Assembly: GCF_000378045.1 (NCBI RefSeq)
Contig: NZ_KB899102.1
Coordinates: 1-64,000 of the forward strand
Length of the DNA: 64,000 nt
Direction of reading: 5' to 3'
From: Marinobacterium rhizophilum DSM 18822
GTDB lineage: Bacteria; Pseudomonadota; Gammaproteobacteria; Pseudomonadales; Balneatricaceae
This document shows positions 2,921 through 6,413 of the stretch, one piece after another. A model generated the notes under the pieces. The model was given only the letters and a program-made list of their open reading frames with translations, ran no database searches and was not told the DNA's origin. The translations under genes and the position numbers were made by a program. How positions within the stretch are numbered: the stretch's first letter is position 1; every line of letters starts with the position of its first letter.

Positions 2921-2947
2921 GAACTAACCATTCACGCACGGTTCATA
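2921..2947 (+). promoter_or_regulatory. Sigma-E/AlgU-type promoter upstream of rpoE
   Basis: GAACTA at 2921-2926 and TCATA at 2943-2947 are separated by exactly 16 bases. This matches the GAACTT-N16/17-TCnnA consensus used by RpoE/AlgU sigma factors, with one mismatch in the -35 element. It lies about 120 bases upstream of the rpoE start, so the operon is probably autoregulated, as in E. coli and Pseudomonas. Confidence 0.65.
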
Positions 2948-3068: not shown

Positions 3069-3656
3069 GTGTCAAACGAGAGTCAGAGCGCGATTGACGG
3101 GCAGCTGGTGAAACGTGTGCAGGCGGGTGATAGTCGAGCCTATGATTTGCTGGTGAAAAAGTACCAGCACAAGATTATCGGCTTGATTGGGCGTTATGTG
3201 TATGACCAGCATGAAGCACTTGACGTGGCCCAGGAAGCTTTCATAAAGGCGTATCGAGCCTTGCCGAAATTCCGTGGCGACAGTGCTTTTTATACGTGGT
3301 TGTACCGAATTGCGATTAACACGGCTAAAAACCACCTGGTTGCGAAAGGGCGCCGCCCGCCGGATGTCGATGTGACGGTCGAGGATGCACATTATTTCGG
3401 CGGAGACAGTGAGCTCAAGGATATTGAAAGTCCCGAGAACAATCTTTACAGGGACGAACTGGAAGCCATCGTTAAGCGTGTGCTCGATAAGTTGCCCGAG
3501 GATCTTCGGGTGGCGCTGACGTTACGTGAGTTCGATGGTTTGAGTTACGAAGATATCGCCAATGTCATGGATTGCCCGGTGGGGACAGTACGTTCCCGTA
3601 TTTTCAGGGCGCGAGAGGCGATCGATAAAGAGATAGTGCCTTTTCTTGCGGATTAA
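3069..3656 (+). CDS. rpoE: ECF sigma factor RpoE/AlgU (envelope stress sigma-E)
   Basis: A 195-residue group IV sigma factor. Region 2 includes DVAQEAFIKAYRALPKF and TWLYRIAINTAKN (about residues 50-90), used for core binding and -10 recognition. Region 4 includes LSYEDIANVMDCPVGTVRSR (about residues 155-178), the helix-turn-helix for the -35 element. The C-terminus IDKEIVPF matches RpoE and AlgU. The start is GTG at 3069 with AAGGA upstream. The anti-sigma gene follows 43 bases downstream. In related bacteria it directs repair of outer-membrane stress and, in Pseudomonas, alginate synthesis. Confidence 0.96.
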   Translation: MSNESQSAIDGQLVKRVQAGDSRAYDLLVKKYQHKIIGLIGRYVYDQHEALDVAQEAFIKAYRALPKFRGDSAFYTWLYRIAINTAKNHLVAKGRRPPDVDVTVEDAHYFGGDSELKDIESPENNLYRDELEAIVKRVLDKLPEDLRVALTLREFDGLSYEDIANVMDCPVGTVRSRIFRAREAIDKEIVPFLAD

Positions 3657-3699: not shown

Positions 3700-4554
3700 A
3701 TGAGTGATCAGTTCAACGATACCCTGTCGGCGCTTGTGGACGGAGAGGCCAGTGACTTTGAGATGCGCCGACTGTTATCTACTCTGGATGAGCAGCCGGC
3801 ACTGGGTGAAAAGTGGCGCCGCTACCATCTGACGCGGTCGGCCCTGAAAGGTGAACGGGATACGGTATTTGCCGATATCAGCGCGGGCATTATGGCTCAG
3901 ATTGACAGTGCAGCTGTAGAGCCCGAGCCTGCGGCTGATACCGGCAGGCAGGATGAACAGGGAGTGGTCGCTCCTCGCAAGGTCGACAGCGGGCGCTATT
4001 GGAAGCCGCTGATAAGCATGGCTACAGCAGCCTCGGTTACCGCTGCGGTAATTCTTGGCGTGCAGGGCTTTAATGCGGAACCGGTAAACACGGTTGCGAG
4101 CAATCAGCCACAGTACGTGTTGCCCTCGCTCGGCAGTTCCGAAGATTTCGTACGTGCCCGCTACGGGCATGAAAGCAGTTACGCCACTCAGGGCGTACCG
4201 CAGGCGGACGTGATACGACTGTCTCGTGGGCTTGAACGCTATATCAACCAGCATCAGCACATGCTCGGCGCCAGGCAGCCCGGTTGGCGCGCCCAGTGGC
4301 TGCCGGATGGCTTCACCAAAGTGCGGCACGAAGTGATGCCTGATGCCGAGGTGATGCTGTTTTCCGACGGACGTCACTCTGTCTCTGTCTGTATCGAACC
4401 GTTCGGACGTCAGACGGTCGCAGCCGGTGCTGCTCAGTCAAAAGACATGATTGCGGTCGGCAAGCGTCGTGGGGACGATTTTGTTACGGTGGTGGGTGAT
4501 GTGCCATTGATGGTCGCTGATCGCATTGCCGCCTCGGTTCAGGCGCGCAATTAA
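3700..4554 (+). CDS. Fused anti-sigma-E factor: MucA/RseA N-terminal part joined to a MucB/RseB C-terminal domain
   Basis: A 284-residue inner-membrane protein that appears to combine two normally separate regulators. Residues 1-60 (LSALVDGEASDFEMRRLL, EKWRRYHLTRSALKGE) match the anti-sigma domain of MucA/RseA. A membrane helix lies near 103-123. Residues 171-192 (RLSRGLERYINQHQ) resemble the periplasmic RseB-binding tail of MucA. Residues 195-281 (GWRAQWLPDGF, MLFSDGRHSVSVCIEPF, FVTVVGDVPLMVADRIA) match the C-terminal domain of MucB/RseB. The large lipid-binding N-terminal domain of RseB is absent, and no separate rseB gene follows; rseC begins immediately after the stop. MucA is usually near 195 residues, MucB near 315. 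I infer that the protein binds RpoE in the cytoplasm and shields its own periplasmic cleavage site. Confidence 0.85.
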   Translation: MSDQFNDTLSALVDGEASDFEMRRLLSTLDEQPALGEKWRRYHLTRSALKGERDTVFADISAGIMAQIDSAAVEPEPAADTGRQDEQGVVAPRKVDSGRYWKPLISMATAASVTAAVILGVQGFNAEPVNTVASNQPQYVLPSLGSSEDFVRARYGHESSYATQGVPQADVIRLSRGLERYINQHQHMLGARQPGWRAQWLPDGFTKVRHEVMPDAEVMLFSDGRHSVSVCIEPFGRQTVAAGAAQSKDMIAVGKRRGDDFVTVVGDVPLMVADRIAASVQARN

Positions 4555-4989
4555 ATGATGGAAGAAGAGGCGATTGTTGTCGCGGTGGATGCCGGGGGTA
4601 TCTGGGTTGAGTCTGACCGGACTGGCGCTTGTCAGAGCTGCAGCGCCAGCAAAGGTTGCGGTCAGCGTGCATTGGCGGAATACGCCAGTAAACGCAGTGA
4701 GCGCCTGCTGATTGATAATCCCCACGGCCTTGTGGCGAGGGTCGGTGACAGGGTCAGGGTTGGCATTGAAGAAGGCAGCTTCCTGCAAGCCTCCATTCTG
4801 TTGTACACCCTGCCGCTGGTCTTGCTTTTTCTGGGTGGTTATCTGGGCTCTTTTTATGGCACGTCTGAGCTGCCCTCTGTTGTAGCTAGTTTCGCTGGCT
4901 TGGCTGCAGGGTTGTGGCTAGCCAGAAGTGCCGGACAGCGTCTGGCGCGCTCCTGTCGTTACCAGCCTGTACTGATGAATATTATCTAG
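4555..4989 (+). CDS. rseC: RseC/MucC family membrane regulator
   Basis: A 144-residue protein beginning directly after the anti-sigma stop codon, so probably translated by coupling. It has the RseC_MucC layout: an N-terminal domain with four cysteines (CQSCSASKGC), then two membrane helices near residues 80-100 and 105-125. RseC/MucC is encoded in sigma-E operons; in E. coli RseC was linked to SoxR reduction and is a mild positive modulator of sigma-E. A second ATG at 4558 is an equally good start. Confidence 0.92.
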   Translation: MMEEEAIVVAVDAGGIWVESDRTGACQSCSASKGCGQRALAEYASKRSERLLIDNPHGLVARVGDRVRVGIEEGSFLQASILLYTLPLVLLFLGGYLGSFYGTSELPSVVASFAGLAAGLWLARSAGQRLARSCRYQPVLMNII

Positions 4990-5012: not shown

Positions 5013-6413
5013 ATGCAGTCGATAAAAATAGTATTCAGTATTTTGTTGTGCCTGGTGTGGTTTCCTGCGCATGCGGAATTGCCTGATTTTAAAAGTCTGG
5101 TAAAGGAAGCAGCGCCCGCAGTGGTCAATATCAGTACGGTACCTAAAGAGAAGAGCGGTCAGGGGTCTGCCCTGAACCCTTTTGAAGGGCCTGATGCTGA
5201 ACAGATTCCGGAGATGTTCAGGCATTTTTTTAAGCAGTTTCCGGAGCTGGGAGATCAGCCACGTCCTGCGCCGCGTTCGCTAGGTTCCGGATTTGTCATT
5301 AGTGATGATGGTTACATCCTTACCAATCATCATGTGGTCAAGGGCGCGGGGAAAGTGCTGGTTCGCCTCAGTGACAGGCGTGAGCTTGAGGCACAGGTGA
5401 TTGGTTCCGATGAGCGCTCCGATGTGGCTGTGCTGAAGATTGATGCGACTGATTTGCCGAGTGTACGCATAGGTTCCTCTGAAGCACTGGAAGCGGGGGA
5501 GTGGGTTCTGGCGATCGGGTCGCCGTTTGGATTTGACCATTCGGTGACCGCCGGAATTGTCAGTGCTACCGAGCGAGCATTGGCCAACGAGACCTATGTC
5601 CCCTTTATCCAGACCGATGTGGCGATCAATCCGGGTAACTCCGGTGGTCCGCTATTTAACCTGAATGGTGAAGTTGTCGGTATAAATTCACAGATTTACA
5701 CCCGTTCGGGCGGCTTTATGGGGTTGTCCTTCGCTATTCCAATCGATGTCGCGATAGATGTTGCCGAACAGCTCAAGAGCCAGGGGCATGTTACACGCGG
5801 CTGGCTGGGCGTAATTATTCAGGAAGTGAGCCGTGATCTGGCTGAATCTTTCGGACTGGATAAACCTGCCGGTGCCTTGATTGCAAAGGTGCTGCCTGGA
5901 AGCCCGGCTGAGAAGGCAGGCTTTATGGAAGGGGATGTGATTTACCGTTTTGATGGCAGGGATATCGATTTGTCCTCAGACCTCCCGCCTCAGGTGGGCC
6001 GCGTCAAACCCGGCGAGTCCGTCTCAATTGATATTGTGCGTAACGGCAAGCATGAAGAGCTTGATGTCACTATTGAGGCACTGCCTGAGAATAGCGATCA
6101 GCTTGCAGCCTCCGGCCATACCGGTGAGTACAAGAGCAACCGACTTAACCTGGTGGTTGGCGAGCTGGATCATGAACGCAAGGAAAAGTGGAACCTGCGC
6201 TCAGGGGTTGTTATCCGCGCGGTAAATCCGGGGGCTGGCGCTGATGCAGGGCTCGTGGCCGAGGATGTGATTACCATGGTCAACGGTGAAGTTATTGAGA
6301 GTGTGAAACAGTTCGAACAGGCGCTGGAAGACCTCCCCGTGGATCGGCCGGTGCCACTGCGCATTGTGCGTCGCGGCAGTCCGATGTTTATTCCCCTCAA
6401 GCTCGAGCAATGA
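5013..6413 (+). CDS. mucD: Periplasmic serine endoprotease MucD (DegP/DegQ family)
   Basis: A 466-residue HtrA-type protease. The start at 5013 gives a clear Sec signal peptide ending AHA-E near residue 22; an upstream in-frame extension would bury it. The catalytic triad is visible as His in TNHHVV, Asp in RSDVAVLK and Ser in GNSGGPL. Two PDZ domains follow, near residues 255-355 and 365-455. MucD degrades or refolds damaged periplasmic proteins and in Pseudomonas restrains activation of AlgU. It is the last gene of the sigma-E operon, 23 bases after rseC and followed by a terminator. Confidence 0.95.
   Translation: MQSIKIVFSILLCLVWFPAHAELPDFKSLVKEAAPAVVNISTVPKEKSGQGSALNPFEGPDAEQIPEMFRHFFKQFPELGDQPRPAPRSLGSGFVISDDGYILTNHHVVKGAGKVLVRLSDRRELEAQVIGSDERSDVAVLKIDATDLPSVRIGSSEALEAGEWVLAIGSPFGFDHSVTAGIVSATERALANETYVPFIQTDVAINPGNSGGPLFNLNGEVVGINSQIYTRSGGFMGLSFAIPIDVAIDVAEQLKSQGHVTRGWLGVIIQEVSRDLAESFGLDKPAGALIAKVLPGSPAEKAGFMEGDVIYRFDGRDIDLSSDLPPQVGRVKPGESVSIDIVRNGKHEELDVTIEALPENSDQLAASGHTGEYKSNRLNLVVGELDHERKEKWNLRSGVVIRAVNPGAGADAGLVAEDVITMVNGEVIESVKQFEQALEDLPVDRPVPLRIVRRGSPMFIPLKLEQ

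Follow-up and report, generated by a model that had tools for sequence, protein, structure and literature searches.

The two-signal model of sigma-E activation, in which outer-membrane-protein peptides act on DegS and lipid or LPS acts on RseB, represents the textbook AND gate in envelope stress. The operon of Pseudomonas aeruginosa has the order algU-mucA-mucB-mucC-mucD. In E. coli, RseA and RseB are two proteins. The DegS site of RseA (residues 142-151) is buried in a hydrophobic pocket of RseB, and residues 93-104 of RseB, within the N-terminal domain (25-208), are described as protecting it (PMC7400510). The primary coupling of MucA and MucB is provided by the alpha-I helix of MucA/RseA on the C-terminal domain. 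MucA residues 145-158 pair with strand betaO of MucB, while alpha-II binds the N-terminal domain, and MucA W158, R162 and H170 are required for MucB binding. Lipid A binds MucB and has been placed in the cavity of the N-terminal domain; the isolated N-terminal domain binds less well than whole MucB (PMC7400510). The MucA cleavage site is 134-VLAG-137, and AlgW cleaves MucB at 211-TVAW-214. AlgW of P. aeruginosa responds to lipid and peptide (PMC8545111). Fusions of class I anti-sigma domains with conserved domains have been described in general terms, in passages that do not mention a fusion to an RseB domain (PMC7406223).

Marinobacterium rhizophilum DSM 18822 encodes RseA and the end of RseB in one gene. 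The window, i.e. the whole stretch of 64,000 nucleotides analysed (contig NZ_KB899102.1, positions 1 to 64,000), contains nadB on the opposite strand, followed by rpoE, the fusion gene, rseC, degP and lepA- and lepB-type genes. The names nadB, lepA and lepB are presumed, for nadB from product matches to FAD_binding_2 and Succ_DH_flav_C and for the lep genes from their translations. The order equals that of the P. aeruginosa operon without mucB. As for RseA/MucA anti-sigma-E factors, the gene is located directly 3' of rpoE. Its stop codon TAA (4552-4554) is followed without a gap by the rseC start codon ATG at 4555, as the sequence-only reading had stated. The features are the following.

2921..2947, plus strand: sigma-E/AlgU-like promoter match (GAACTW-N15-17-TCNNA) upstream of rpoE, tentative
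3069..3656, plus strand: rpoE, sigma-E/AlgU-type ECF sigma factor (TIGR02939, 306.5 bits, cut-off 236)
3700..4554, plus strand: fused RseA-RseB(C) anti-sigma factor, a single open frame of 284 amino acids
3715..3936, plus strand: RseA_N domain, predicted to bind sigma, residues 6-79 (PF03872, E 6e-14; 6in7, E 1.5e-19)
4006..4062, plus strand: predicted single transmembrane helix, residues 103-121 (top 19-residue hydropathy 1.85; N side probably cytoplasmic)
4150..4161, plus strand: candidate AlgW/DegS site-1 cleavage region VRAR, residues 151-154, within two alignment columns of the MucA-type VLAG
4210..4224, plus strand: VIRLS strand, residues 171-175, overlapping the counterpart of MucA 145-158; pairing with betaO predicted
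4228..4269, plus strand: putative alpha-I docking helix, residues 177-190, from the alignment with two-gene RseAs (H185 opposite MucA H170)
4273..4542, plus strand: MucB/RseB C-terminal domain, residues 192-281 (PF17188, E 2.7e-17 in the genome search; fold match Z 16.2)
4555..4989, plus strand: rseC/mucC (PF04246, E 1e-31)
5013..6413, plus strand: degP/mucD-type Do-family serine protease (TIGR02037, 491.5 bits, above cut-off)

The presumed sigma-E/AlgU promoter consensus GAACTW-N15-17-TCNNA has four matches in the window against 1.13 expected, a number reached in 3 of 100 shuffles; the three matches besides 2921..2947 lie elsewhere. An autoregulation of rpoE from this site is tentatively suggested, a chance match being possible as well. 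At 531-1230, an sdhE-like gene overlaps a gene for a CptA-like membrane protein and adjoins nadB and the rpoE operon.

The fusion protein matches two Pfam families above their cut-offs, RseA_N (PF03872, residues 6-79, E 6e-14, 52.8 bits against 24) and MucB_RseB_C (PF17188, residues 192-281, E 5e-17, 62.3 bits against 30.1). Up to E 1, no further Pfam family was detected in the protein, including the LolA-like N-terminal domain PF03888. The proposed fusion and the loss of the lipid-sensing RseB domain were thereby confirmed. The NCBIfam RseA model matches residues 7-146, and positions 221-315 of the 319 in the RseB model match residues 194-282; both scores are far under the equivalog cut-offs. 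Among solved structures, the N-terminal end matches the cytoplasmic domain of MucA (6in7), and residues 175-281 match the C-terminal part of MucB (6in9); use of the family profile improves these E-values, to 1.5e-19 for 6in7. RseB(C) shares one open frame with RseA and is not the separate, exported soluble protein typical of MucB/RseB. The predicted membrane helix is preceded by four Lys/Arg and followed by none, consistent with an N-in topology, and the next-best hydropathy window (1.36) lies inside the C-terminal domain. The candidate site VRAR is located some 30 residues past this helix and at least 17 residues ahead of VIRLS. In a fusion alignment of 18 rows (A1), I172, R173, L174 and S175 are invariant, as are Y181 and H185 of alpha-I, which align with the YLxxH of RseA; the relative L003 has P at S175. 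Three divergent fusions of the family (L046, L047, L052) and the fusion of group f142 are missing the YxxxH helix; the former three retain the RseB C-terminal domain, scoring 15.3 bits in L047 and 22.3 bits in L052, below the Pfam cut-off of 30.1. Among the MucA residues W158, R162 and H170, only H170 has an identical counterpart (H185). The C-terminal domain carries Cys231 (window 4390-4392, SVCIE), which is common to many, not all, family members. The MucB region bearing the disulfide C90-C198 is absent from the fusion.

A second RseB was sought in the whole genome. PF17188 matches the fusion gene alone. One PF03888 match was found on another contig, scoring 23.7 bits against a cut-off of 22.3 over positions 103-176 of 178. 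It was rejected as a second RseB; the protein belongs to DUF1571 (E 1.3e-42). This protein (L001:1477-2232, G000:C9) adjoins an open frame that appears transposase-like by eye. No other recognisable RseB was found in the genome, where a separate full-length rseB would have spoken against the sequence-only reading. In the family as a whole, 14 of 116 genomes gave a PF03888 match; each was partial and weak (best E 1.1e-7), and 12 exceeded the Pfam cut-off. Three of the 14 loci were inspected, and none had an RseB-like neighbourhood: one encodes a DUF1571 protein, and the other two have, by eye, RND/ABC-type permeases and beta-barrels as neighbours.

Among named organisms, the closest relatives of the fusion occur in Marinobacterium sedimentorum (87% identity) and M. 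profundum (86%), followed by Pontibacterium (50%), with five named loci in total. Both genera belong to the Oceanospirillaceae in the NCBI taxonomy. In the family sample, PF17188 was detected in 112 and RseA_N in 113 of 116 genomes. Comparison of open-frame lengths gave equal values for both domain matches in 110 of the 112 (262-410 amino acids, median 286). For 30 of these same-frame-length genomes, the window's own and those of 29 relatives, the locus itself was read. Together with the five named loci this makes 35, each of which aligns with the window protein in a single frame. The alignment starts at residue 1-4 in 34 of them and at residue 28 in L014, and it extends to residue 281 or further. 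Three exceptions are explained by the data: a contig end breaks the gene in G043, with overlapping sequence on both sides; the C-terminal domain of G048 has diverged under the Pfam cut-off, yet forms one 282-residue frame covering positions 6-277 of the fused profile; and a run of Ns separates the RseA and RseB parts in G088. The fusion is thus taken as present in 112 of 113 family genomes with RseA, the remaining one being masked by Ns. Neither domain was matched in G012, G044 and G091, with completeness of 72-90%. The same architecture occurs in all 16 genera of the sample. A frameshift inside the fused C-terminal domain was seen in one relative (G017, L051).

Outside the family, A1 was searched against 293 genomes of the order, 267 of which gave a match. 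In each of the 14 members sampled from the window's family, a single match spans most of the model and ends at position 263-278 of 279, while among the matches listed (to E 1.1e-19) those from other families of the order end at position 189 or earlier. Thirteen outside-family frames of at least 260 amino acids among the listed matches (L056, L083, L085, L118-L127) were read, and none was a fusion. A class-wide search of 276 genomes at E 1e-12 or better gave matches in 125. From it, nine listed outside-family RseA-side matches with frames of at least 260 amino acids were fetched; three of them were fusions, two in f129 and one in f142. Further fusions could exist in other genomes of the class. 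In f129, a gammaproteobacterial group, five of six genomes match, all five with both parts in one frame. The two f129 proteins tested exceed the Pfam cut-offs for both domains (C-terminal domains 61.5 and 62.4 bits). In f142, one genome has the fusion, its C-terminal domain having diverged (27.9 bits against a cut-off of 30.1, E 2.7e-6); the other genus has two genes with frames of 219 and 338 amino acids. A scan of viral contigs revealed no relative of the fusion.

A tree built from the RpoE, RseA and RseB C-terminal domain sequences of 28 loci places the fusions of the window's family in one group (support 84/93). The f129 fusions fall outside the sequences of the order (95/95 for the order's branch). 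The f142 fusion stands beside two-gene members of the class (95/69), a position that is unsure, with L078 (f142), L045 and L073 being long branches. A single origin of all fusions was rejected (AU p 0.008), as was a single origin of the window's family and f129 (AU p 0.026). Because f142 holds both the fused and the two-gene state, a separate event in this group is supported. On the sequences at hand, comparable fusions appear to have arisen separately in the f129 and f142 lineages. A further state is found in f41, of the same order. PF03888 was searched again in 63 genomes (61 order genomes with a single A1 match, G480 and G586) and was found in 46 and missing in 17. None of the 13 f41 genomes in this set had a full RseB N-terminal match, eight having none and five a weak partial one. 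In five of six f41 loci (L080-L084, L087), degP follows rseA without an intervening rseB; the stretch of the sixth contains no degP. The two-gene, fused and f41 states indicate that RseB has been kept, reduced and fused, or apparently lost. The f41 operons resemble the window in having RpoE, RseA and DegP without an RseB N-terminal domain; unlike the window, they showed no RseB domain.

The join point was located by alignment with ten two-gene RseAs. The fusion retains RseA sequence through the YxxxH helix (YINQH here, YLxxH in many others), lacks the NTxxGxxPYARV-type tail of separate RseAs and resumes with RseB sequence at the W of WxxxWLPxGF. This entry point corresponds to W214 of MucB, the residue at the end of the AlgW site 211-TVAW-214, so the join lies at the hinge between the MucB domains. 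MucB numbers were counted across on the 6in9 alignment and MucA numbers derived from the W158-R162-H170 spacing on the Pseudomonas-like RseA L069; both are inferred. The dropped tail is the location of the alpha-II 'plug' of MucA, which binds the N-terminal domain of MucB (PMC7400510). An AF2 model of residues 162-284 reached pTM 0.64 and a mean pLDDT of 66.7, with block means of 61-85 for model residues 31-120. All 15 Foldseek matches at E 0.001 or better were RseB/MucB. VIA-align superposed the model on RseB 3m4w_A (Z 16.2, rmsd 2.1, 98 aligned), MucB 6jau_A (Z 16.2, rmsd 3.3, 100 aligned) and 2v42_B (Z 16.2, rmsd 1.3, 91 aligned). The best structure other than RseB/MucB, 4n7s_B with Z 8.8, is taken as a common arrangement. 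The VIRLS strand and most of alpha-I (model residues 1-18 and 24-30) have pLDDT below 50, and docking in cis was not seen in this model. A full-length AlphaFold model from six sequences was unusable (mean pLDDT 35.6).

An inter-domain motif of RseB is altered in the fusions. The comparison comprised 39 distinct fused and 37 distinct separate-RseB C-terminal domains, with identical sequences removed and domain matches below 12 bits omitted. L048 and L049 are interrupted by an N run or a contig end and were assigned manually to the fused domains; three extra f129 loci, the f142 pair and L118-L127 stand outside the comparison. At the column of MucB D247, all 37 separate domains have D against 18 of 39 fused ones (19 N, 2 K), and at L249 all 37 have L, I, V or M against one of 39, where 36 of the 39 fused domains come from one clade and the counts are not independent. 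In the window protein, the counterpart of D247-G248-L249 is D-G-R at 223-225. G at residue 248 of the window protein declines from 37/37 separate to 15/39 fused, and E at 267 from 33/37 to 4/39 (fused mostly D). F261 (35/39 fused, 2/37 separate) and M271 (29/39 against 1/37) are features of the window's family. E217 had seemed newly conserved in a first comparison of 18 with 17 domains and was dropped; in the larger set it occurs in 35/39 fused but also in 16/37 separate domains. Beyond the counts in one family, altered forms of the D-G-hydrophobic motif are met again in separate lineages: f129 fusions have NG[E/D] in four and DGE in one of five, and the f142 fusion has NGI, retaining the hydrophobic third position, against DGL in its two-gene relative. 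D247 is described as one of the central inter-domain residues of MucB (PMC7400510). L249 is probably part of the same contact.

The proteases of the pathway are encoded in the genome. An AlgW/DegS-type protease (G000:C21:70534-71655) covers DegS positions 3-350 and scores under the equivalog cut-off, as do DegS-type matches in all 30 family genomes searched. RseP (G000:C11:150558-151907) is above its cut-off. A second DegP/DegQ-like match (G000:C14:77372-78403) lies outside the window on the window's own contig, about 72 kb from degP.

The reading preferred here, with a probability of about 0.55, is a one-piece anti-sigma switch for sigma-E/AlgU without the RseB lipid gate, which would be released on activation of AlgW/DegS. 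At sequence level, we regard it as established that the two genes are fused, that the fusion is conserved in the family, that the N-terminal domain is missing, that the protease genes are present and that the interface motif is altered. The gene would have originated by the joining of rseA to the final third of rseB, in the course of which the C-terminal tail of RseA, the signal peptide of RseB and its LolA-like lipid-binding domain disappeared. In the product, RpoE would be tethered at the inner membrane by the N-terminal domain. VIRLS and alpha-I probably pack against the RseB C-terminal domain of the same chain, forming a compact cap downstream of the protease site. With the pocket over the cleavage site gone, release would be gated mainly by activation of AlgW/DegS through C-termini of misfolded outer-membrane proteins. 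A single cut may free the entire cap and leave a short stub for RseP and, subsequently, cytoplasmic proteases, while lipid/LPS sensing via RseB would be lost. The uncut fusion would still be excluded by the proposed size filter of RseP, and the exposed site could be spared basal cleavage if basal AlgW activity is low. The steps that we infer are docking within one chain, exposure of the site and control by a single input. The self-capped reading is the simplest since the elements contacting the C-terminal domain are retained in the fusion, and the elements belonging to the N-terminal domain are absent. The single-input switch is weakened by the low confidence of the docking helix, the retention of one in three MucA binding residues and the loss of YxxxH in some fusions. 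A strictly 'lipid-blind' behaviour is weakened, since AlgW here, if like that of P. aeruginosa, could keep some lipid input.

The main rival is close to the earlier claim of a protease guard tethered in cis, in which the fused C-terminal domain, alpha-I and VIRLS mask the AlgW/DegS site until some signal opens it. The invariance of VIRLS and alpha-I residues in the 18 A1 rows agrees with it, and the newly conserved F261 and M271 indicate selection on the domain, in the family of the window at least. In the RseA-RseB complex, however, the site is covered by a strand of the N-terminal domain and the hydrophobic pocket of RseB (PMC7400510); the guarding part has been lost and the docking half is what has been tethered. 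The candidate site also lies well ahead of VIRLS, and a guard in cis is considered unlikely. The same conserved positions suggest a more specific role than that of a size barrier or stability module, in which the C-terminal domain senses nothing and its bulk keeps the uncut protein from the PDZ filter of RseP. Such a filter is in line with the proposal that the RseP PDZ domains exclude full-length RseA by size (PMC10202637). That f41 has RseA without RseB would also make guarding dispensable, but there the periplasmic part of an ordinary RseA is apparently enough, and a mere barrier is quite unlikely.

Lipid sensing in trans, by another LolA-like periplasmic protein docking on the fused domain, could draw on the weak PF03888 proteins of 14 family genomes, that of the window included. 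Yet 102 of 116 family genomes have no such match, the three loci inspected lack an RseB-like neighbourhood, and the inter-domain motif is altered, which makes a separate sensor highly improbable. The merging of two genes by a frameshift or an assembly error is refuted. Nothing in the window speaks for it, and the frameshift in the relative G017 lies inside the domain; against it stand the one frame across the family, with the exceptions accounted for, the 16 genera sharing the architecture and the RseB N-terminal sequence, which is wholly missing and not merely out of frame. The overall interpretation of the sequence-only reading holds for architecture, domain loss and conservation, is not supported for the guard in cis, and has a wider scope than first noted, comprising the whole family and two other groups.

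The one-piece switch shares with MucA/MucB of P. aeruginosa the cytoplasmic anti-sigma domain, the membrane helix, alpha-I, the RseB C-terminal fold and AlgW/RseP-type proteases. It differs in having mucA and the end of mucB in one gene, in lacking the signal peptide and the lipid-binding N-terminal domain of MucB and the alpha-II tail of MucA, and in the altered D247-G248-L249. RseA_N and the RseB C-terminal domain are homologous to those of E. coli, where two proteins exist and the RseB pocket lies over the DegS site. The fusion is a variant within the RseA/RseB system and not a different kind of system. In titles and beginnings of abstracts of the open-licence PMC articles listed by the searches, which are weak evidence of novelty, no RseA-RseB_C fusion was described.

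The chances are about even that the RseB lipid gate was given up on at least two occasions, and probably on three, by like fusions of rseA to the docking domain with the sensor removed. Each would leave a self-capped, lipid-blind switch in which the old interface has become intramolecular, and the parallel motif change would mark the RseB residues that serve the N-terminal domain alone. A different circuit would go unnoticed if such proteins were labelled as plain RseA or only after their RseB domain. A family with the lipid input removed and the docking half kept represents a natural experiment. It makes testable whether the RseB lipid gate is optional, which role the C-terminal domain plays on its own, and which contacts serve the inter-domain interface only.
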